From contig VKHL01000059.1 of assembly GCA_015146655.1 (NCBI GenBank), forward strand, positions 101,276-165,275: DNA of 64,000 nucleotides. Direction: 5' to 3'. Made by a program: the position numbers and the translations under genes. Origin of the DNA: Ochromonas danica. Its lineage: Eukaryota; Sar; Chrysophyceae; Chromulinales; Chromulinaceae. The notes under the pieces are model-generated. The model was not told where the DNA came from, ran no database searches, and saw only the letters and a list, made by a program, of their open reading frames with translations. How positions within the stretch are numbered: position 1 is the first letter of the stretch; each line of letters begins with the position of its first letter. Shown here piece by piece: positions 10,173 through 59,048 of the stretch.

Positions 10173-13100
10173 ATGGCCACTAACAACGAATTGACTAGCA
10201 ATGATCTCATTTCCAGTTTATGGAGTGGATCCTCCATTGACAAATGTCGAATAGGCCTATGTGATGCTATCTTATATGAAGCTGGTCTGCCAGTGCGATG
10301 GTATGTCACAGGTGGGGCAGGAGAAGTGAAACTCAAACGAAATGTCGACTTGTCCGCCATTTCCCGCCGTTGGTTAGCCATTGCAGAACAATCTGAATCT
10401 TCTTTTGTAGCAGCAATAAGACAAGAAGGATTAGTGAAATTTCTTAGTCGGACAGCCTGGGAAGCCTTTGTGGAAGAAGGCAAAGTGGCCGACCCGGCGC
10501 TGTTGTCCGTGCATTGCTTTCTCGGACGAGGCACCAACCCCATTATCTATCGTAACTCTTACTCCATGAATCTTACTACAGGAAGATGGAAAACAAATAC
10601 ATTGTCTTATACGGTAGTCAAGGATGAGATCATGTCTATTATCTATGAGGAGAAGTTGAAATTTGTTGATAATCGTGCAGCACAAATTGCAAAAGTTTTA
10701 GATTTAGCCTCAACGACAGTAATACGATATGTAGAGAAGATGCTTCGTATTCAAATAGTAGAATGTAGTTTAGACTTTGTGATTGATCGTAAGTCTCAAA
10801 TTTGGATGTTATGGGCAAACAAAACGTTTTTTAAGAAATCTGCCGCTACTGGAGAAAGTATTTCCAGACCTTTATCATCAACTAATCGACTATCAGAGAG
10901 TATTGATCCTTTTTCTGAAACATATGATGAAGATATGATACATAGGAAAGATGAAAATACAGGTCATCTTCTTTCTCAACAATTAGAAGAAATGGCAAAT
11001 CATGATATTTTGAAACGAAATCCAAATGCGGAGAAAATTCATTCTGCTAACACTTTGAATAACTTTATAGTAAATGAGAAAATAGAGAAGAATAAGAATA
11101 ACAGCAACAAGAGAACAACTTCTTTCCCAACACCTTTCAAATGTATTGGAGATTATTGTCATCTTCTCGTCCAGCCTGTGGGGGCATTAACTGTTGACAA
11201 GAAAACTGCAGCAATGCATTTAGCAAGTAAACTCTTTACAGAGAAGGAGATTGAAACATTGAAGAAAGATCCAAATTATTCGAAGATGATGGACTTTTCT
11301 TCTTCTGCATTAGGAGAATCATCTGCTGATGGTTTGTTAGAGATTAACAAGAGATCTGTGGAATTGGCTCGTACAGAACGAAGAGGATTAGAACAGTCTG
11401 CCTTTAGTGATATCTCCTTCTCAAGCATTCCTGGACAGGCGATTGGATCTGCTGCTTCTGCTGGAGGAGGAGAGAATGGCGGTGGAAGCAAGAAACATCG
11501 ATACATGGTGAGATCAAACTTGATTGCCAGCTTTCTATTTTCTTACCATTTGCTATATGTTTGTTTTGATGATAGGATTCGATTCAATCTACACCTAATG
11601 CTCCGATTAGAATGGAAGGCTTTCCCTCCAATATGAACACATATTATGAACCTGTACGCGTCTGTCCCACTTGTTATGATGCTTATCGTTGTCTCGATTG
11701 GGCTCGTGGTATATTGAAAAGAGCAGAATTATCCAGTAGAAACAATAGCCTTAGCCCCAATCGCGTTATAACGAGAACGAATACAGATAAATCCTTTCTA
11801 AGCGCTTCCCCCAACAAACAATCGCCTATCAAGCCTGCTACCACAGGAGGTCTTCAGGAAGAAAGCAAACAGTCCTTGGAGAGCATATCATTCAAGTCAA
11901 CACAGTCTACAGAAGAAGGAAAACGTCAATCGAGACGAGGTGGACGAGAGAAGTTAGGCAGATCGTGGAAATCTCAAATAACTGATGAAAATGTGGTTGG
12001 CGAGGGGACATCATCGCACAGAAGACGTAATGACTTGGCCATGCTTGATAACTATATTCGAGGGAAGCCATCTTCACCTTCTTATATTTCTCGCGAGAAC
12101 TCCTCACAATCTCCTCAAAAGGGAAAATCTTCGTCTTCCAAACCAAGACGACAACGAAACTCATCTGAAGAAAGGGCCGCCACCACCACCACTGCTACTG
12201 CTGCTAACGAGAGTATCATCACAAGATCAAAACTTCCTCAAAGCAATGTATACAAAGGGAAGGTCCTTCTTGCTAGTGCAGATTCAGAACAAGTCAAACG
12301 AGTGATAGCTATTCTACAAGAGAATTTCTTTGAAGTACGTCATGTTATTGATGGTCGAGAAGCATTAAATATCATTTCTTTAGAATGGAAGAAGATTGAT
12401 TGTGCTTTGATTGATCGAGATCAATTACCTTTATTAGATGTCTTTGAAGTGTGTAAAGGTATTCGTTTACATGAGAAGACTTTACGAAAAACATACAGTC
12501 TACAATCACAAAAGGATCCCATCTATACTGACAGATTTCTAAACTTTCGCTTGCCAGTAATTTGTTTCACTTCTGCTACAACAGCTGGAGATTTAAGCAG
12601 TTATATGGCAGGAGATTTGGATGGTTGTGTTTCCAAACCAGTCGATCCAACTTCTCTCTTGACGACCATTCGTGCTGCTATTCCTCAGCATTTGGCTCCT
12701 CTTCCACCGCCCACATCAGATGAATCGATGGCCCTTAAAAATACCTCAAAAGTACAGAAAGTGGGACTTCTTGGTGAATTAGAGAATAGTCAAGACTCGG
12801 CGAGTATGGCATTAAAAACTTTAAGTATAATGGGCAGTAATGAAGGTTCAGAGTTTCAAGGCTTTGTTCAATTGGATGCTGACACAAAGCTACCTTACTT
12901 AGTGTTGAATGGTTCCAAGTATACAAGAGTAAGACAATCATCTACAAAGGAGAAGTTCTTCAATCTTGTTGTTTGTCATGATGTATTTGATACCTATGAA
13001 CGAATGAAAATTCTATTACAACCTATTATACAACGTTATCAAGCTATTCAAGTCTTAGTCTGGAATTATCCTGGTCAAGCACAAACAGAATGGAGATCTA

Positions 13101-16100
13101 CTCAATCTTTAAATAATGAATATCTAGCAGCTTGTTTAAATGAGGTCTTAGGTCAAGTAGGTCATCTAGGAACACGAGATTTCAATACCGAAGAGCCTTT
13201 CTACCTCTTAGGCTATGGTTATGGTGCCAATATTGCTGCTTACTATATGGCTCACTATCGAGCACCGTATATTCGTGGTCTGTTATTAGCCAATGGTTGG
13301 GCTTTTGTAGACAGTTACTTGGCAGGTATTATGCATGATTGTGTGAATATCTTCCAATCTGCACCTTCTTCCAGACCTGATCTTCCAGTTTATTTCTTCT
13401 CACGCTTTCTCTTTTGTAAAGATTATCTAGCAAAAGTGTCTGTTCCTTTAGCTTTAAATATCTACACTGCAGTCTATAACTCTATCTCTATTAATGGTCG
13501 AATTGCATTATGTAATGGAATATTGAAATCACATGATATTCGACCTTTGTTAAGATCAGTGGACTGTCCTATTGTCTGCTTACATAGCGATCAAAACAGC
13601 TTCATTCGGCCTATTCATGTTGAACCATTTGTTTCAAATCGTGGTGGTGAAGTTCGTAGTATTTATCGTGCTTTACAAGATTTTCGAAGAACTTGTGTAG
13701 TCTGGTTACATGGTGGACATGAGATGTTTCAAGAGAATCGTAAACAAGTTGTTCTTCTGTTAGAACAGATTCTCACAGGTTATCATGAAGTTCATGAATT
13801 AACCTTTCCTAGTGCTTCTTCAATTATCTCCGCAACGAATGCATTAAATGCAAATGATCTAAAGACAAGTGTGAATGAAGTTTCGATGGAAGATAAATTC
13901 ACTCAAAGTGTGTTGAATTTGTCTAAAAAGACTGCTAATGAGGTCCATCAGAAGACAACCAATCCTCTTAAGCCTGCCACATCACCTTCACCAATAAGGA
14001 CTAAATCAGCACATGTCAATTCTCTTCAGAACAATAGTCCAAATTCATTGACTTGGGGTCCAAAGGCCAGTAGTCAGAAGGATCTCTTGGCTACCACCTC
14101 AGCAACAAGTAGTCCAGGAAAAGGAATGTCGGTTGCCTTTGCAAATGATGAAGGAGTTCCTTCATGGCAATCTTTCTCCGAGACGTTATTACAAAAGCAA
14201 CATTCTATTTTAACATTTGATGCACAAAAGGCAAAGGATAAAGAAGGATTAAAGAAGACTAGTAATATCACTAATATCAACAATGTCCCTATGAATGATG
14301 TTCATGCTTATCCAGAAGTTAAGGAATATATGCAATGGAGATTAAAACGAAATAAGAAACGTTTAGAAAGATTACAATTAGCTGCACAATCCATTCAATG
14401 TGCTTTCCGAGCTTTCTTAGCGCGTAAATTAGTGAAGACTATTCGTGAATTACGTGCTGCTTCATTGATTCAACGAGTCTTTCGTGGTCATATTGGTAGA
14501 AAGAAATTCTTCCAGCATGTTCGTATGCTATGGGCAGCTATCTATATTCAAAAGATTTATCGTGGATTCATAGCAAGAAGAGATTATTTCATATTACAAG
14601 TTCGTATTGCAGCAGCAGCAAATATACAACGATTATTTCGTGGATGGAGAGGAAGAGAACGTGTTAAACGAATACGTGCTGAAAGAAATCATGCTGCATG
14701 TATTATTCAAGCTATGTTTCGTCGTTTTCAAGCTCGACGGGATGCTTGGCTTCGTCGACAATTTCGAAATTGTGCGACTGTCATTCAGAAGAACTTTCGC
14801 GGATTTTTGGGTCGAAAACGTGCTGCAGCAGAACGAGATAAATATATCTTTAGTAAGAGTCAGTCTCAAGGGATTGAGTTTGGTCGACAGATGTTATTAG
14901 AGCATAAGCTACATGTGACTAAATTACAAAGTGATGTGACATTATTAAGTCAAGAGAAGGTTAGTGCAGAGGAACAGATTGAAGCATTATTAGAAGAGAT
15001 TGCTTCCTTTGAAGAAGGTGTTCGTGTCTTGGAGAAAGAAATGCATCAATTATCAAAAGTTGAATCAGAAGCTGCTGCTTTTATGGATGAAGATAGTAAA
15101 TTTGAATTACGAGAACAAAAGATGCGATTAGATCGTGAATTTGGTGAAATGTTAGGAAAGATTGCTAATCGTAAAGATATGTTAAATGATATTGAAAAGA
15201 AACTTGCAGCTATTGATAAGGCAAGACAAGGTAAAGAAGAAGATCTTCGAACGTTAGAACGTAAACTAGTTGTATTATTAGAAGATCAACAAAAGGAATT
15301 GAATATGATCAAACGAAAACAAGATGTTCGTGGTGCTTTGTTAGCAGCTTCACATGCTGAACTTAATCGTGTTACAACTGCTGCATCAAATGGCACCATG
15401 GCATCCAATGCTGGATTACCATCATCTGCAGGAGGAAGTAGTGGTGGTGGTGGTGGTTATAATGGTGGTCCTAGTTTACAAGAGAAGAAACAAGCTGCTC
15501 AATTAATGCAAAGTACAGAGACGTTAATGAAGTTTGGCTTCATGTCAATGAGTATGACCTATTTTAGTTCTTTGAATATGATTAAGGCATTACGAACTGT
15601 TTCAGCTCAAGATACTGTCATGGCAGCTCTTGCTGATGTCCATGCACAACGAGCTGTTGGTCAGAATGGTCCATCATCATCATCTGCAATGTCCGCTGAT
15701 ACGATGAGTAATCTCACAGGTAATGCAGCTGATCGTGTAATGTCTCGTTTGAAAAAGGGTGAGTTACCAGGACAACAAAAGCTACAAGTTTCTTCTTGGA
15801 GTGTTGAAGATGTTGCCAAATGGTTGCAATCCTTATCATTAGGTCAATATTCAGAAGCATTTATTGACAGTGCAATTGATGGAGAGTTCCTCTATGATCT
15901 CAATGATGATGACTTAAAGAATACTTTAGGTATTGAACATCGTTTACATCGCAAGAAGATTTTGAATTGTATTCAACGACTTAAGATGGCAGAACTTCAA
16001 AATGAAAGTCGCTTGGGTAAGCTTCAACATGCTTTATTTGCTGGCCAAGGAGGTGCTGCAGGTGTTGGGAATAATGCCATGGTAAGGTCTTTCTTTCTCT

Positions 16101-16824
16101 TTCTCTTGCTAGTAGACAATGTTGATCATATGGTATTGTTAGGGTCCATCGGGTCCTGGAGCCATGCCAGACTTGCCTGCTTCTGCGCAAATGCCCGACT
16201 TCGCCAATGTTGGCTTTCCTGATGGAAGCAGCAATCGACCAGAAGAAGACAGTCGAATCATCGAAGGTCCTCGCGTCTCCATCCAAGAACTCTTCTCTTA
16301 CGTGCGACATTCCAAGCTCTCTATGCTCAAGGAAGCTATTGACTATCTACCCAATAAGCCTTTCGACAAGTCTCTTGTGCAGGTGAAGTCTATAACTCTG
16401 TTGAATGCTTAACATCTTTGTTAACGTTCTGTCTGTGTGTGTGTTTGTGTTGGGTCAGGCTGCATTTGTTGCCGATTTCGGTACAGTTTACGTCTCTGGG
16501 TATGAACGTTTGATATTCCATATTAACAAGGTGGATGAGTATGGCAATACCTTGTTGATCTATGCTTGTCAGAATGGCAATGCAAAGATCGCCAAGTATC
16601 TCGCCAACAAAGGCGCTAATCTCAACCATCAGAACAAGCAAGGACAGACGGCTGCTCATTACGCCATTGCTTATCAATTCTTCGATCTATCTACGTGGCT
16701 GTTTGAGAATGGTGCTGATGACACGATTGAGAACAAGTTCGGACTCACAGCTTATGACGGTCTCAATGCCACGGAGGATGAAGGAGGATATGGCGGTGAG
16801 GATACCCTAGCCATTGAGAACTAG
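10173..16824 (+). CDS. Multidomain scaffold: pseudo-receiver, inactive hydrolase fold, 6 IQ motifs, coiled coil, SAM, ankyrin
   Basis: Four exons joined in phase 0 (10173-11507, 11576-16081, 16143-16382, 16459-16824) give 2,148 residues. The first in-frame ATG is at 10173. The N-terminal 500 residues carry Cys motifs (FKCIGDYC, VCPTCYDAY) and are otherwise unrecognised. Residues about 670-810 form a receiver-like domain with a possible phospho-Asp (ALID), Thr/Ser (CFTSAT) and Lys (VSKPVDP), but the acidic pair is replaced (LLASAD). About 906-1178 has an alpha/beta-hydrolase fold. Its nucleophile elbow reads GYGYG with no Ser, although Asp (HSDQN) and His (HGGHE) remain. About 1382-1530 holds six IQ motifs, presumably binding calmodulin or centrin. 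A coiled coil (1535-1700), a SAM domain (about 1848-1916, WSVEDVAKWL) and ankyrin repeats (last 200 residues, YGNTLLIYACQNGN) follow. Likely a calcium-responsive cytoskeletal or flagellar scaffold; the function is inferred. Confidence 0.9.
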
Positions 16825-23560: not shown

Positions 23561-23706
23561 TTTACCACCTTTTGACTATTTTGCCGTTTTGCGGTTTCTC
23601 TGTTGTTGATTTTGGTTGGTTTTCGGGTTTTTGCCAAACTCTGGTTGTGAGATTGAGATTGATTGCAGTCGATTAATTAATTAATTAATTGTACTGTTGT
23701 GCATGT

Positions 23707-26079
23707 ATGATTCAATTGTTTTACTTTATTTTCCTTGTTTTGGGTAGATGGAAGATTTGTGTGTCTTCTTCCTCTTCTACTTCTTCTTCTAGTAATCCCA
23801 TCATTGAAGAGAATGCCAAGTTGGGCAGTTCGTTGTGGTGGCAGCCTCAACATCAATCTGACCCACCAATAGAAGGCTTCACCACATCGATTAGTTATCT
23901 GCCTGGAGAGTCAGTGGACTTCAAGATGAAGTGTTCTAATCTCTCCCAACCTTCCTTTAACGTGGAGATCTATCGATTGGGTTATTACGGAGGCATGGGC
24001 GCTCGCCTGGTCGCCAATCTTTCTCTCCTCAGTGCCACTTGCCAAAGTCAACCTGCTTGTATGTGGGTACCAGGAGTTAAAATGACAGATTGTGACAATT
24101 GGTCCCTCTCGACACGATGGGTCGTCCCCAAAAATGCAGTTTCTGGCGTCTATCTCGCGTTGCCAAGCATTCGCGACATAAGTCTGCTTTATGGTGGATA
24201 CATACCTTTCATAGTGAAACAACCCTTAGATAAGTTTGGCAGCGACATATTGTTTAAGACTTCTGATCCAACTTGGGTAGCTTACAATAAGTTTGGAGGA
24301 TGGAATATCTATGGCTTCAATCATTCCAAAGACTTTGCAACCAGAGCCTTCGCTGCATCTTACAATCGTCCTTTTGCTAATCGTCTAATCTATCCAATCG
24401 GGCAACAACAAAACTTTGTTCTTGGTAGTGAGTTTCCAATGCTGTACTGGTTGGAGAAATTTGGTTACCATGTGAGTTATTGTGCTGCCAAAGATGTGGA
24501 AGATAGCAAGTTCATTGAGAACTATCGGATCATACTTAGTATTGGTCATGATGAATATTGGACAAAGGAGATGAAGAATGGGTTTATTCATGGTCGAGAC
24601 AGAGGGGTGCATTTGGCATTCTTCAGTGGCAATGAGATGTTCTGGCGAGTGATTTGGCAAGAAAACTATCAAGCCTTGATGAGACAGCATCATATCAATA
24701 GTACATGGTCCACTGAGCTACCTGTCAGATCATATCGAAACTTTATTTGTCGCAAAGAGAGTATTGATAATGTTTCTGCTCCTCATGAAGATCTCTGGAC
24801 AGGAACATTTACAGATCCTCGTCACCAATCTGTGCCTGATCCTTCCAATTCTCTTTCTGGTCAAGTTTTTCTCGTTAATTCTTATCGTAATGATAGCTTG
24901 ATAGTTCCTGTAGAGATGGCCATGCTAAGATTTTGGAGAAATGCTTCCTTTGTAAAGGAAGAGAAGCCTTATCGATCTCCCGCAGGAGTGCTTGGTTATG
25001 AGTGGGATATCTTCGTTGATGATATCTTCCGTCCTCCAGGACTCTTCCCTGTGTCAAGCTCTCCTATGATGATAAAAGAATCGCTATCAGAGAATTTTGG
25101 TGCTTCTTATCGAGGAAGTGGAGCGGTTGTTCACAAGGCAACCCTCTACCGACACCAACAAATCAAAAGGCAGCCTTCCGCTATGAAAGCTAATCTGCCA
25201 ATTGATGCTGTTTGTAATAAAAAGGCGTTGGCCAAAGATTTTAGTATTGAAAAGAAAGGATCTTCCTCTCTGGTTTTCGGCGCTGGAACTATTCAATGGG
25301 CATGGGCACTCAGTAACTTCCGCGATGGTGACCCTATGCCAGTCGATCTCAATCTTCAACAAGCTACAATGAATCTCTTTGCTGACATGGGCGTTCTACC
25401 TCATAGAAAACTTCAAAATGCTAGGGGTATTATTCCGTTGTGGAATGACAGCTTTGATCGTTCTGTGTCTCCCCATGACCACCTGGTTTTCCCTGTAGGA
25501 TCGACTGATAAAACTCCTCCTATCTCTCATATCCTACGCCCTTCACTATCTAAATCCTCTGACAAACGGTGGAAGAGGTCCGATTCACCGAGCAAGCAAG
25601 TGTTGTTTATTTACGGCACGGCAAGAGATGTTGGTGGGGGCCAAGTGGCAGCTGTGGAGGTTTCTGTCGATGCGGGTAAAACTTGGCATCTCGCCTTAGG
25701 TGGGGCACGCTGGAGATATTACCATCATTTTGAAGAAGACGATGCTGTTGTTGCCAGTAAGAAAGAAGGGTTTTATGACTGGGGAAGGTATGGCCATGGC
25801 TTGCTAGTCAATAGCATAGAGAATGATCTGCGAGAGCATTTCTTTTCTGAAGGGAAACTCTATTCTGAAGGGCTGAAAGCAAGAAAGGGGAAGGTCATTA
25901 TTATCATGAGTCGAGCTGTCGATGACAGTGGTAATCTCGAGAGATCGCCAATTCGGCAAACTTTGTGTGCGCTTGGGAACTTCATAGATAGAGTGAATCA
26001 AAGCTATCCAGCCACTCATATCTCGCGACACAACCTGAACGTAGAGAATGTTATTTACTTCTACCTTCCTTTCTCGTGA
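23707..26079 (+). CDS. N,N-dimethylformamidase beta-subunit-like protein (secreted or membrane-anchored)
   Basis: Intronless, 790 residues from the ATG at 23707. The N-terminus (MIQLFYFIFLVLG) is hydrophobic and likely a signal peptide or anchor, followed by poly-Ser. The main body has hallmarks of the C-terminal domain of the large subunit of bacterial N,N-dimethylformamidase: VEIYRLGYYGGMGARLV at about 87, LSIGHDEYWT at about 280 and FFSGNEMFWRV at about 300. The last 190 residues form a beta domain (GGGQVAAVEVSVDAGKTW) like the Ig-like dimerisation domain of sulfite-oxidase-type proteins, a pairing also known in bacterial members. Substrate and activity cannot be read; many members are of unknown function. 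The family is mainly bacterial and the gene lacks introns, so horizontal acquisition is possible. Confidence 0.8.
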   Translation: MIQLFYFIFLVLGRWKICVSSSSSTSSSSNPIIEENAKLGSSLWWQPQHQSDPPIEGFTTSISYLPGESVDFKMKCSNLSQPSFNVEIYRLGYYGGMGARLVANLSLLSATCQSQPACMWVPGVKMTDCDNWSLSTRWVVPKNAVSGVYLALPSIRDISLLYGGYIPFIVKQPLDKFGSDILFKTSDPTWVAYNKFGGWNIYGFNHSKDFATRAFAASYNRPFANRLIYPIGQQQNFVLGSEFPMLYWLEKFGYHVSYCAAKDVEDSKFIENYRIILSIGHDEYWTKEMKNGFIHGRDRGVHLAFFSGNEMFWRVIWQENYQALMRQHHINSTWSTELPVRSYRNFICRKESIDNVSAPHEDLWTGTFTDPRHQSVPDPSNSLSGQVFLVNSYRNDSLIVPVEMAMLRFWRNASFVKEEKPYRSPAGVLGYEWDIFVDDIFRPPGLFPVSSSPMMIKESLSENFGASYRGSGAVVHKATLYRHQQIKRQPSAMKANLPIDAVCNKKALAKDFSIEKKGSSSLVFGAGTIQWAWALSNFRDGDPMPVDLNLQQATMNLFADMGVLPHRKLQNARGIIPLWNDSFDRSVSPHDHLVFPVGSTDKTPPISHILRPSLSKSSDKRWKRSDSPSKQVLFIYGTARDVGGGQVAAVEVSVDAGKTWHLALGGARWRYYHHFEEDDAVVASKKEGFYDWGRYGHGLLVNSIENDLREHFFSEGKLYSEGLKARKGKVIIIMSRAVDDSGNLERSPIRQTLCALGNFIDRVNQSYPATHISRHNLNVENVIYFYLPFS

Positions 26080-52489: not shown

Positions 52490-52984
52490 CTAACGTACTC
52501 GAAGGAGAATGTGAACGCCAGAGTCAGTCTCGACCAGATCGCTCAACTCGCCAACTTGCAGACTGAAAGAGGCGTTTTCAAACGGCTTCTGCATTTGACC
52601 ACGACCAAACATTCCAAGATCACCACCACGCTCATGTGAACCACAATCACTCTCTGTGGTGGCAATTTCACGAAAGCGTTTGAACATTTCGTCGTAACCT
52701 TGTTGCTGTAAGATACGCTGAAGCTCATCTCTGTATCCACTCACTTGAGCTCGAGCTTCATTTATGCTTTGTGTTATCTGGTTGTTTCTCCAGCTGGCAG
52801 GACGTCGAGAACCACTATGTTTGCGCAGAATATGGAAAACCTGTACCTCCTCTTTCTCAATAACGTGGGAGTTACCTTGAGGTGGATGCCAAGATGACTC
52901 TCCTGTGGCAGAATTAAAATAGTAGATTTGTCCAGGATGAGATTTGGACTCTCGTTCCACCCAACCAGGTGGTAGATGTGACAT
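52490..52984 (-). CDS. PIN1: Peptidyl-prolyl cis-trans isomerase PIN1 (WW + parvulin)
   Basis: Intronless, 164 residues from the ATG at 52984, as in human PIN1 (163). WW domain: LPPGWVERES, IYYFNSATGESSWHPP. Parvulin domain: HILRKHSGSRRPASWR contains the phosphate-binding Lys/Arg-Arg loop, SDCGS the active-site Cys, GGDLGMFGRGQMQKPFE the core, and TDSGVHILLR the C-terminal strand with the conserved His. It isomerises phospho-Ser/Thr-Pro bonds in nuclear and cell-cycle proteins. Confidence 0.96.
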   Translation of the reverse strand: MSHLPPGWVERESKSHPGQIYYFNSATGESSWHPPQGNSHVIEKEEVQVFHILRKHSGSRRPASWRNNQITQSINEARAQVSGYRDELQRILQQQGYDEMFKRFREIATTESDCGSHERGGDLGMFGRGQMQKPFENASFSLQVGELSDLVETDSGVHILLRVR

Positions 52985-53145: not shown

Positions 53146-56100
53146 ATGGATGATGATTCCCTCTCCTTACATGAGAAAATGATCAATCTTCAATCTACAG
53201 GAGGGATTGTTCACTTCTTAGCTGGAATTGTGAGTCGTAATCGAGCATTAGCAGAACTTTCTCTCTCTCAATTGCTTGACAGCATCTCTTGTCTGGATGC
53301 AACTTTCCTCAACCCTGCTGTCACCCCTCGGCCCACACCTTTGATTGACGTCTTCACTCTCTCCAATCCACATCTGGCATTTCTGGTAAGACCTCCCATA
53401 CTACTGAGTGAACATGTCTGGTCTATCATATCTGATAATGGTTCATGATGAGCAGGCATTCTTGAATCAAAGTTTGGAACGGTCAAGTCGCTCTATGACA
53501 GAGTGCACTCTACGCTCCTTTGATAAGATGCTAAACAAGTTGATTACACATGATCATATGAATGCTATCACTGGCTTCTCTCCTAGTGTATCCTCCTCAG
53601 ACAATGACAATGTCGTCTCGCCAATCAAACAGCTGGGGGAGATCCTCATTGACTATCAGACCGCGGGTCAGCCGTTGTCTCTTCCTCCTTACGGAATTTG
53701 CCTTCTTTTCCTGCTCCAACTAATGGTAGAAAGAGTGGATGATGCCTTCCATCACCTAGCTACCGCCTTATCTTCTACCTGGCAGCTGATCGTACAGTTC
53801 GCTGAGGAGAAGTTTAGCCTCCTTCAACATGGAGACTCTTCTTCAACCTCTCATAGTCAAGCACAACAACAACATAAGAAGAAGCTGTTATTACAAAGAG
53901 CTTGTGAGCTACAGCTCATATTGAGCTGGTTGGTCTCTGTCTGTGAATGGATCCATTTGAAGAATACCTCCACCCAAGAACAAGAACAAGAAGACGATAT
54001 TCAGCCTGGCCTCATTCACACTAGCCTTTCTGATGTATCTCTTGATAATGGGTCGAATTCTTCATCCTATGATAATCTTATACATTCCTTGGAGAATCTC
54101 GTGTTACATTATCGTATTGTATTGCCACTGTTGAGTTTTGTTATTCGAGGCGTCATTATGGTGTTGTCTGTGTCAGAACGGTTAGAAAATCTACTAGTTT
54201 CTCTGTACTCTGTACTCTGTTGATTTGTCACTCTTCTTCCTCTATAGGCCGGACCTTGTGCTGGAAGTATTGAGGATGGACAAGAGTGTGAATTATGAGC
54301 AATACGCCAAACTGCTTACTTTTGATGCATTCACTGGTGAATCTTCTGTTGTTGTTTCTACTACTGGGGATAAAATGAAAGAAGATGATGTAATTGATAT
54401 TAGTGATGATGGATATCAGTATTTCCAAGAAGCCACAAGAGAAGAGTGTGATGAGGTTAGCCAGATGACAGTTTAGCTTGTTATTGGCCTGTTAACATCT
54501 GTTGTTAATGCTTGTTATGGTGAGACAGATACTGGATGACAAACCAATTGGAACGTTCATGGTGCGGTATCAATCAAGTCCAAATGTTGTCAAATCTTCT
54601 TCTTTACAGTTTTTCTTAAGTTTCAAGACTTCCACTTGTGTAAAGCATGCAGTCATTCGTCGCGAGCCTTTCGCAGGAAATAGTGGTAGTAATAATGGTA
54701 GTAGCAGTGCTTTGCCTCCTCCGAAGTTTTCTTATCGCTGTGGATCACTTGGTCCCTTGAACAACCTACTCGAGATATTGCGGTGAGTCGAATCATCCTT
54801 ACAGTTCACCTCTCATGCCTACCGTAACTTCGCTATGCTATAGGGCTATATCAGGGTATCTACCAGAGCCACTTTTGTTCACCAGTACAATCTCTTCGCC
54901 TTCTGACAGTCACTCCAATGCTAGGAAGCTGCCACAGTTTGATATTAACGCACCCTTATGGCATTTCATTCGGTCAACTTGGCTGATAGAATCCACGAAT
55001 CACATGGATATAGAGTTTCGCAGTTTGAGTCAAGCTCCTCCTCCTCTCAGCCAACTAATAAATGAGACAAGCTTTGGTGACTCTGAATCACGTCATTCGG
55101 GTAAGACAGCAATCTCTGACGGAGAAGAGGAAGAAGAAGAATTGCATTCCAAGCAAGGAAGAACTAGTTCAGAAGAGAAAGGCAAATCAGAAAAGCTTGG
55201 TGAAGATAGAGAGGAGGATATGATAGGAGCTGAAGATGAAGAGCAACGGAGATGGTTCTTGCTGGAGAAGCCACAAAGAATGATGCATTTTGTAAGCAAC
55301 CTCGTCTATTGACTGCATCACTTGTTAATGTGCTGACGAGGAAATTGTTGTTGTATTATCAGGTGGACATGATTGTAGACACTCTGACCATGGAGCAGTA
55401 CCTTAATTCCACTGAGACCATTGGTCATGTCTTGCAGAAGATTTATGCTTTCGATCTTCATCAAGCTCACTTCCCTGAAAGTACACAAATCCCCAATAAG
55501 CTTTTGGGAGAGATAGCTGGAGATGACACCGGTCATCATTCTATTTCTCTTGCTAATGAGAAACTATATGCAAATCTTCTCTTCTTGAAGAAGCAATTCT
55601 TGTCCTTTACCTCTTTCTCTCAATTCGCTCTATCCAATCAAATTAAGCGAATGGATATGTTGCAGGATATTCTACTTTCTCCTTTGCGTGTTTTAGTACA
55701 GAGATTGCAAAATAGACTATCCTCAGCCCTTACTCTTGCTCGACCATCAAGTGCCAATATGTTGTACCACATGCATAGGTCTAATTTCATGACTCACAAG
55801 AAATCGAGATCAGAGAGGAAGCCTTCTTATCATCTCTTCAAAACATGTGAAAGACTGCTTTATCTATTGCGCAGATATTCTTCCTTGTTGACAAGTGCAA
55901 ATGCTGCTAGTGGATTATTTCGATCAGTGAAATTCTCTGCTGGAAGTAGTTTCCAAGAATCTTCTTCCTTATCAACTTTGTCTGTCCATATTCAAGGTGG
56001 CACAAGTGCAGGAGGATTTGTCTTGTCTGATTGCTGTGAAGTCACAGAGCTGCTTCACACCTTACACAAGTACATATCCGAGATTGGTAGTCATTACAAG

Positions 56101-59048
56101 ACAATGAATAGCTCTGGTCACCCCACTAACAACAGCAAGAAGGAGATGGTGGACAAGCAGCATGTCTCAAAATCTGGTCTCTTCTCCACTTTCAAAACTT
56201 CTTCTCATCGTCCAAAATTTGGTGGAATGATTTCTGACGATGAAGATGATGATGATGATTTGAATGATGACGATGATGCAGAAGTCGCTCGAGAAGAAGG
56301 AGATGATGACATCATCACTGCTACATTAGCAGATATGAACAACAAAGACAGAAATGTTGCTGACAATAGTATGCACGGGAAACTGCCTGGGCAATTAGGA
56401 GAAATGAATACTAGCACTACTTCGAAGGAGACAACACAACAACAAGTCATCGAAGAAGGCCAAGATAGTACTAGTTCAGGAACAAGTGAACAAGCATCAG
56501 TCACGCTTTCCTCTTCTTCCACATCTCAAGCATTCTTCAAAAAGCCACCACTTCCTGAACAACAAGGAGAAAAAGTAACAGGTGGAAAGATGAAGCAGTT
56601 CACTAGTAATCTACGAAGTAACTTTCATCGTAATATGAGCAAATTAGCTTCTCATATGGACAAACTCTCTGTAGTATCGAAGTCGTCAGCTTCAACCAAC
56701 CAACTTCCTTCTACTGCTCCTCCAAATGTTGTGAAAGAAGCAACAAGCTTACAACGAGCTATCTTGCATTCTATCTTGCATCTAATTCGACTAATGCATG
56801 TTGATTTGCTGGAAGTGATGAAAGCATCTGATGCCGCTGCAGTGTTGCCCAAAGCTTCTGTTCATCACAGTACCACGGATGGACCCATGACAACTATGAG
56901 CCTAGCTGAAAAGATCGTTGACATTATGACGAATTGCAATATGCTGGAATGTATTGTCAAACCTTCTGAGCTAGCCTTTGGTCTGCCTCAAACATATTAT
57001 CACTTTGTACATCCTTGGGAGGTGAGTTGAAAGAAGTATTTGATATAAAGGTCATGTGTTCTATATGAGAATGATTTGTTTTCCATGTTTGTTAGGGAAA
57101 GGTTTTACAAAACTATGCCATTGCAAGTGAAAGATGTAAACTTGGTCGCCAGGTGTACCAAGCTGCTCCTTCCTCTGTTCTCTTTTCCAAGGTGAGTATA
57201 CTACATCATAGACAACTACTTAAAACAAATGTATTTAACAGCAGCCGTTGATAATGGGACAGATATCATCCCCTGGGGCATTTTCTTCTTCTGTAAATGA
57301 CGAATATTCTGGCTTGGGAGCTTATCAAATAATGGTGTCCAATCTCATAAAAGAAACAAAACGAGGTCTCCAGGCAGTAACTGCATTGGAAAAGACTATT
57401 CCTGACTGGAAGAATGGTGGTTACACTGAAAAAGCATCAAATCAACGAGAAGAAATCTGGACTGAATCCTATCTCAAACTAGTGGACTACCTCAGGTACA
57501 CTTTACTGTAATATGATTGCTTGTGACCTTTCTCTCATTGACTGCTTCGCTGGTGTTGTTGTAGAGTGGAACAAGCTCTGGTACAAGTCGTCAATGAAGC
57601 TACTGTGGATGTTGATCCTCATAATCATGTCACACAACCCACTAGTGCTTGTCAAGCTCTGGCTACTCCAACTACTCTAACACAGAGTGGGTTATTAGAT
57701 TTACAAGAAAGAGTTCTTGCGTTTTCTGCAATGGCACAGTCTCCTTTCATCTCCACTGTGGAGCAATACCTTCTCCGCAATGCCTTATTGGCTAGACTTG
57801 GACTACCTTACCGTTTTGTGATGTTCTTTCAAGTGGATATTTATAGTTTAAAGGAGATTGTAGCCTTGAGCGCTCGATCACACAAAGTGACAACAAGCAA
57901 CCCAACGGAATCATCCAGTAGATTCAATGATTCCACCTCCTTTGCTTTATTGCCTTCCAATCAGATGCATCCTCAGTCTATGGATGTGTATTCGATGATG
58001 AAATTGACCAAGTCCATGGAGTTGGATCCTTTAGCAGATTGTCTTCATCAGCTGCCAACGCATGGAAGCTATTTCATGGGGAGTGGTCACAATAATAGCT
58101 CAGCCAACAATACTCGACCAATGGACTGTGGGTTCGTTACACCACCAAAACGATTGGAGGCACGCCCATCAACTGCCGGTGGTGGTGGTGCATCAGATGG
58201 TAGTGGAGCAGCGCTGTCAAGGCCTTGGTTAGCTCAAGTGGGGCAAAGTGTTGACTATGAGTTGCGCCAGCAGGGACTCTTCAGAGTCGCTCTTCCCGAA
58301 TATGTGACATCAGTTATTGATCCAAGCAGTGCTCAGTCTTCATCAACTGCTTCAGGTAGGTCATCCATAGCGTTGACAGCGAGAGAGAGGCATTCAGCAA
58401 TGCAGTAACATGTCTGTTGTTTGTTGTTTGCGTGTTGTGTACCAGATGAAGAAGATGTTCACTTTATTCCCTACACGAAGCTGTCAATCTCATTGTTTGA
58501 ACGAACTTTCTTCAGTGATAATAAGTTTGGAGATATACATATCAGTCTTCTTGACTTGAATGACAAAATGTGAGTATGGATGAGTTACTAGTTGTTCTGA
58601 TGGATATGCTAATTAGCGAACTGTTTGAATAGGGTACTCAAGGATTGGTTTCCAGTTGTCTCTCCACCTGAAGGACTGTCAGGAAGTATGAATGCGAGCA
58701 CAACAAAGATGACAGCGTGTTGGTTAGCTTTCTTGCAAGTGAAGTTACGATTCCATCTGATGCAAATGGAGGAATCTTCTTCATCTGCTGCCAATAATGT
58801 CAACTCTTCCTCCTCACTTCCCTTGCCAACCTCAACAAGTAATCGCACAGGTGGCAAGGAAGAGAGTGGCAATAGTGCAAGTTTGGGTACCAATATTAAT
58901 AATGCTGCGCCAGCAGAGAGCAAGAGCAAGAAGGTGAGTCTAATGCAGTGTAAACAATACACAATGGCAATAGGTTTGGCTAACAATTTGTATGAAATAC
59001 TCTCTACTACAGCGAACATTACTTGGTCAGCTGGATGACTTTTTCTAA
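53146..59048 (+). CDS. Large SH2- and C2-domain protein
   Basis: Twelve exons (53146-53385, 53456-54180, 54248-54455, 54529-54782, 54844-55291, 55363-57021, 57096-57191, 57242-57495, 57565-58355, 58446-58569, 58633-58933, 59013-59048) give 1,711 residues. An SH2 domain is read across the third intron at about residues 378-480: ATREECDE/ILDDKP, GTFMVRYQ with the phosphotyrosine-binding Arg, LQFFLSF, VKHAVIRRE with the beta-D His, and YRCGSLGPLNNLLEIL. The middle is helical and Ser/acidic-rich. The last 380 residues include C2-like strands (FFQVDIYSL, LSISLFERTFFSDNKFGDI, ISLLDL, LKDWFPVV, LQVKLRFHL). SH2 domains bind phosphotyrosine; C2 domains bind lipid or calcium. The last intron could be retained, giving an alternative end at 59038. 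No kinase domain; the overall family is unrecognised. Confidence 0.85.

Follow-up and report, generated by a model that had tools for sequence, protein, structure and literature searches.

The SH2 domain is the module by which animal cells read phosphorylated tyrosine. SH2 domains and tyrosine phosphatases (PTPs) are widespread across eukaryotes, with or without tyrosine kinases, as stated in a paper on a Legionella SH2 protein (PMC6208348). Among stramenopiles, only four proteins with plausible SH2 domains and two tyrosine kinases are described in Phytophthora infestans, and the diatom Thalassiosira pseudonana is credited with no tyrosine kinase (TK) and 14 TKL kinases (PMC3019232, its Table 1). 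In the SH2 domain of yeast SPT6, phosphothreonine is bound in the canonical pocket, according to PMC5599234.

The protein described here is encoded by the chrysophyte alga Ochromonas danica and very probably carries an SH2 domain. It resembles the P. infestans proteins in belonging to the same supergroup and in occurring in a lineage with few or no tyrosine kinases, a comparison made by description and not by sequence. The first-pass annotation had regarded SH2 domains as scarce beyond animals and amoebae. This rarity was overstated, as four are already reported in the stramenopile P. infestans (PMC3019232), although the existence of an SH2 protein other than SPT6 proved to be real. The algal domain is thus a modest addition to the SH2 proteins already reported in that group. 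The literature on SH2 in diatoms, stramenopiles and named ochrophytes, surveyed with incomplete coverage, yielded no paper on such a protein. The protein is large and otherwise unannotated, with an architecture for which no match to known proteins was found.

The window, which is the whole stretch of DNA analysed, comprises 64,000 nucleotides (positions 101,276 to 165,275 of contig VKHL01000059.1, assembly GCA_015146655.1), and the features of the SH2 gene within it are collected below.

Table 1. Features of the SH2 gene, with positions counted from the first nucleotide of the window.
Feature	Position	Strand	Content or evidence
SH2 gene model	53146..~59051	+	12 exons, hand-set GT..AG introns keeping one frame
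Exon 3	54248..54455	+	3' end codes first SH2 strand and helix alphaA (DGYQYFQEATREECDE); PDB alignment
Whole SH2 domain, residues 375-476	54405..54782 (intron within span)	+	PF00017, E 3.6e-4, 21.0 bits
Intron splitting SH2 helix alphaA	54456..54528	+	73 bases, GT..AG
Exon 4	54529..54782	+	betaB (GTFMVR), betaC, betaD (VKHAVI), ~20-residue insert, C-terminal part to LLEIL
FMVR, betaB strand, invariant phosphate-binding Arg (residue 404)	54556..54567	+	PDB alignments
VKHAVI, betaD strand, His (residue 431)	54640..54657	+	at its aligned place
C2-like C-terminal stretch, residues ~1555-1607	58446..58675 (exon 10, intron, exon 11 start)	+	phmmer
Last exon	59013-59048	+	stop included

The coding sequence of the hand-set model is 5,115 bases including the stop codon, giving a protein of 1,704 residues, and all 11 introns are of the GT..AG type with lengths of 61-90 bases. 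Read without splicing, the frame of exon 3 stops at 54476. When exon 3 is joined to exon 4, the frame is kept and reads ATREECDE/ILDDKPIGTFMVR, followed by VKHAVI and LLEIL. The spliced protein of the first-pass annotation is therefore borne out in its open joined frame and its quoted peptides, although not in its length of 1,711 residues. The splice 54455/54529 is a prediction based on the frame and the domain match. Because exon 3 adds 7.7 bits to the Pfam score, the splice and the SH2 domain are both independently supported.

The SH2 gene has a head-to-head neighbour on the minus strand at 52493-52984, a gene for a Pin1-type prolyl isomerase with WW and PPIC-type rotamase domains. Elsewhere in the window a long open frame (11576-16222, plus strand) encodes a SAM domain and IQ motifs; its match to the response-regulator receiver stays below threshold (E 2.7e-5, 24.8 bits against a cut-off of 30.2), and one stretch is suggested by eye alone to be alpha/beta-hydrolase-like. 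The frame at 23692-26076 (plus strand) strongly matches the N,N-dimethylformamidase beta-subunit-like C-terminal family (E 2.1e-72), and its Mo-co dimerisation match is weak and below the cut-off.

The segment of residues 375-476 is a divergent but recognisable SH2 domain, with a confidence that we put very high and a statistical strength that is moderate. On a 119-residue segment, the Pfam SH2 profile (PF00017) scores 21.0 bits (E 3.6e-4), which equals the curated cut-off of 21 exactly. With other bounds the score is below this cut-off (19.7 bits, E 9.4e-4, for a 204-residue segment; 13.3 bits, E 0.092, for exon 4 alone), and a Pfam scan of the full-length protein gives no match at E ≤ 10. 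An SH2 piece of SPT6 from the same genome, used as a positive control, reaches 33.1 bits on PF00017, and eight shuffled versions of the segment and one reversed version all give no match to Pfam at E ≤ 10. The match spans positions 2-55 of the 77 in the profile, and the last quarter of the domain is left unaligned. The last strands and helix, which end in LLEIL and follow a Ser/Pro/Asn-rich insert of about 20 residues in exon 4, were assigned to SH2 by eye alone, as was the fit of the final FSYRCGSLGPLNNLLEIL stretch. Of the peptides initially said to match SH2, the terminal LLEIL part lies outside the profile match.

Among PDB sequences, all 24 matches of a 63-residue core at E ≤ 1 are SH2-carrying proteins, with p85, Src, HSH2D and Grb2 among the printed names and a best E of 0.029, and a longer query of 147 residues gives eight matches, all SH2-carrying and aligned only from the start of the SH2 domain onward. 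The 119-residue query gives 38 matches at E ≤ 10, comprising 21 antibody chains, 16 SH2-carrying proteins and one other, and its top match is an antibody chain; the antibody chains align with the Ser/Pro-rich insert and with the C-terminal end. Exon 4 folded from its single sequence gives a poor model (pLDDT 52.2), for which a fold search retrieved nothing at E ≤ 0.001, SH2 being absent from the 50 matches listed. The borderline score, the empty full-length scan and this poor model would fit a chance or convergent resemblance, in which the segment is not SH2. That explanation is very improbable in view of the E-value of 3.6e-4, the gain of score on splicing, the silence of all nine negative controls, the SH2-carrying identity of every PDB match of the core, and the correct order and spacing of the motifs. 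The domain claimed by the first-pass annotation is thus upheld by profile, controls and PDB matches together.

The best single-sequence matches of the algal domain are the N-terminal SH2 of p85 (PIK3R1/2) and the SH2 of Src, which share with it the order of motifs and the pocket Arg and His. In alignments to both, alphaA begins with TREE, betaB carries FMVR and betaD carries VKHAVI, and the phosphotyrosine Arg and betaD His named at the outset are found there, in FMVR and VKH. We take TREE, FMVR and VKHAVI to supply the pocket residues ArgalphaA2, ArgbetaB5 and HisbetaD4 that contact phosphotyrosine, and position betaD6 is Val in the algal domain where Src has Lys. Since these pocket residues are conserved, phosphotyrosine reading by the algal SH2 is plausible from its sequence. 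In contrast to p85 and Src, the algal protein lacks, by Pfam, any PI3K-regulatory, SH3 or kinase part; a long insert separates betaD from the last strands of its SH2 domain, and the score is weak.

The tandem SH2 of SPT6 (SH2_2, PF14633) belongs to the SH2 superfamily and is present in the same genome, whereas the SH2-gene protein has no Pfam match to PF14633. The SPT6-type match sits on another contig (C15), apart from the SH2 gene, so that the protein is not SPT6, as had been stated. Exon 4 as a query matches only itself in its own genome, which indicates a single copy, and exon 9 likewise matches only itself, with no paralogue. Two genome-wide searches of the assembly (31.2 Mb, 337 contigs) are uninformative on how many SH2 proteins it encodes: PF00017 returned no candidate, missing even the SH2 gene and SPT6, and its controls stayed silent, and a generic SH2 consensus gave no match. 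Viral contigs, scanned twice, and genome contigs, scanned once, yielded no relative of the protein, in collections where eukaryotes are not abundant.

Outside the SH2 domain, the helical parts of the protein match no Pfam family apart from a chance-level Fur_reg_FbpA (E 0.11) and no PDB sequence better than E 0.76. The peptide SVNYEQYAKLL, just N-terminal to the SH2 domain, looks to us EF-like, as in the Cbl/STAT arrangement. Together with a helix-rich stretch, this resemblance would suit a protein built like Cbl or STAT, with a helical bundle, an EF-like linker and SH2, but such an arrangement is very unlikely: SH2 is the sole Pfam family in the 204-residue segment that contains the peptide, and none of the eight PDB matches of the 147-residue query is Cbl or STAT, their alignments beginning at the SH2 domain. 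A Cbl or STAT identity is accordingly unsupported by Pfam and PDB searches. The same holds for a MUN/Munc13 identity, which was also considered.

A C2-like domain at the C-terminus, fused to SH2 according to the first-pass annotation, is hinted at by weak single-sequence similarity. Three of five PDB matches of this stretch are extended synaptotagmin-2 (E 0.21, 0.22 and 0.43), and a viral glycoprotein chain and a cohesion protein account for the remaining two; two C-terminal segments match no Pfam family at E ≤ 10, C2 included, and the fusion is unproven. The alignment to the extended synaptotagmin-2 C2 (E 0.21) runs ungapped over 53 residues, whereas most acidic residues of its aligned loop are replaced in the algal stretch, and Ca2+ binding would therefore be unlikely.

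The genome fits a photosynthetic ochrophyte, in agreement with the heterokont alga initially proposed, as it has 47 matches to chlorophyll-binding proteins. One of these, searched against the PDB, matched 660 sequences, of which the best 60 are light-harvesting (LHCI, XLH, FCPI, VCPI). Four tandem light-harvesting matches of equal score (L024-L027) are spaced at about 2.4 kb on contig C224 (8673-16382).

The first-pass annotation had proposed to look for tyrosine-kinase-like genes. The kinase family PF07714 has 150 matches in the genome, and the exact tyrosine-kinase patterns HRDLAARN, HRDLRAAN and HRDIAARN have none each, in a search that misses intron-split or varied motifs. All 20 of the kinase loci read by eye, out of the 150, show in their catalytic loop the Lys typical of Ser/Thr kinases; in one locus the loop is interrupted by an apparent intron. 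The tyrosine phosphatase family PF00102 has four matches at three places: the match on contig C172 (45 bits) shows the CX5R signature, its Cys being preceded by Asn in place of the customary His, and the two further places resemble dual-specificity or related phosphatases. Eraser-like genes of the PTP family thus exist, and a classical writer kinase is unseen by the three exact patterns.

These genome data bear on whether a true SH2 fold could have lost phosphotyrosine reading and now bind phosphoserine/threonine or serve as a purely structural part of a scaffold. Such a loss would accord with the silence of the three patterns, with the Ser/Thr-type Lys in the 20 loci read and with the phosphothreonine bound in the canonical pocket of yeast SPT6 SH2 (PMC5599234). 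It is nevertheless unlikely, if less so than the other alternatives, since decay would not favour the retention of ArgalphaA, ArgbetaB5 and HisbetaD, all of which are kept, and PTP-family phosphatases are present.

We prefer, with a probability of roughly 0.6, a phosphotyrosine-binding scaffold or adaptor that would receive its phosphotyrosine from non-classical kinases. The protein would be single-copy, long, mostly helical and cytosolic, with one SH2 domain and a possible Ca2+-independent C2-like C-terminus. Its SH2 domain would dock on phosphotyrosine of partner proteins via the alphaA Arg, betaB5 Arg and betaD His, and its C-terminal C2-like part may hold this presumed scaffold at a membrane by direct contact. 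Tyrosine-kinase-like or dual-specificity kinases might make the phosphotyrosine, and the phosphatases of the PTP family carried in the genome would remove it. If the algal SH2 does bind phosphotyrosine, the gene would offer a single-copy entry point for asking whether phosphotyrosine reading occurs in photosynthetic stramenopiles without classical tyrosine kinases.
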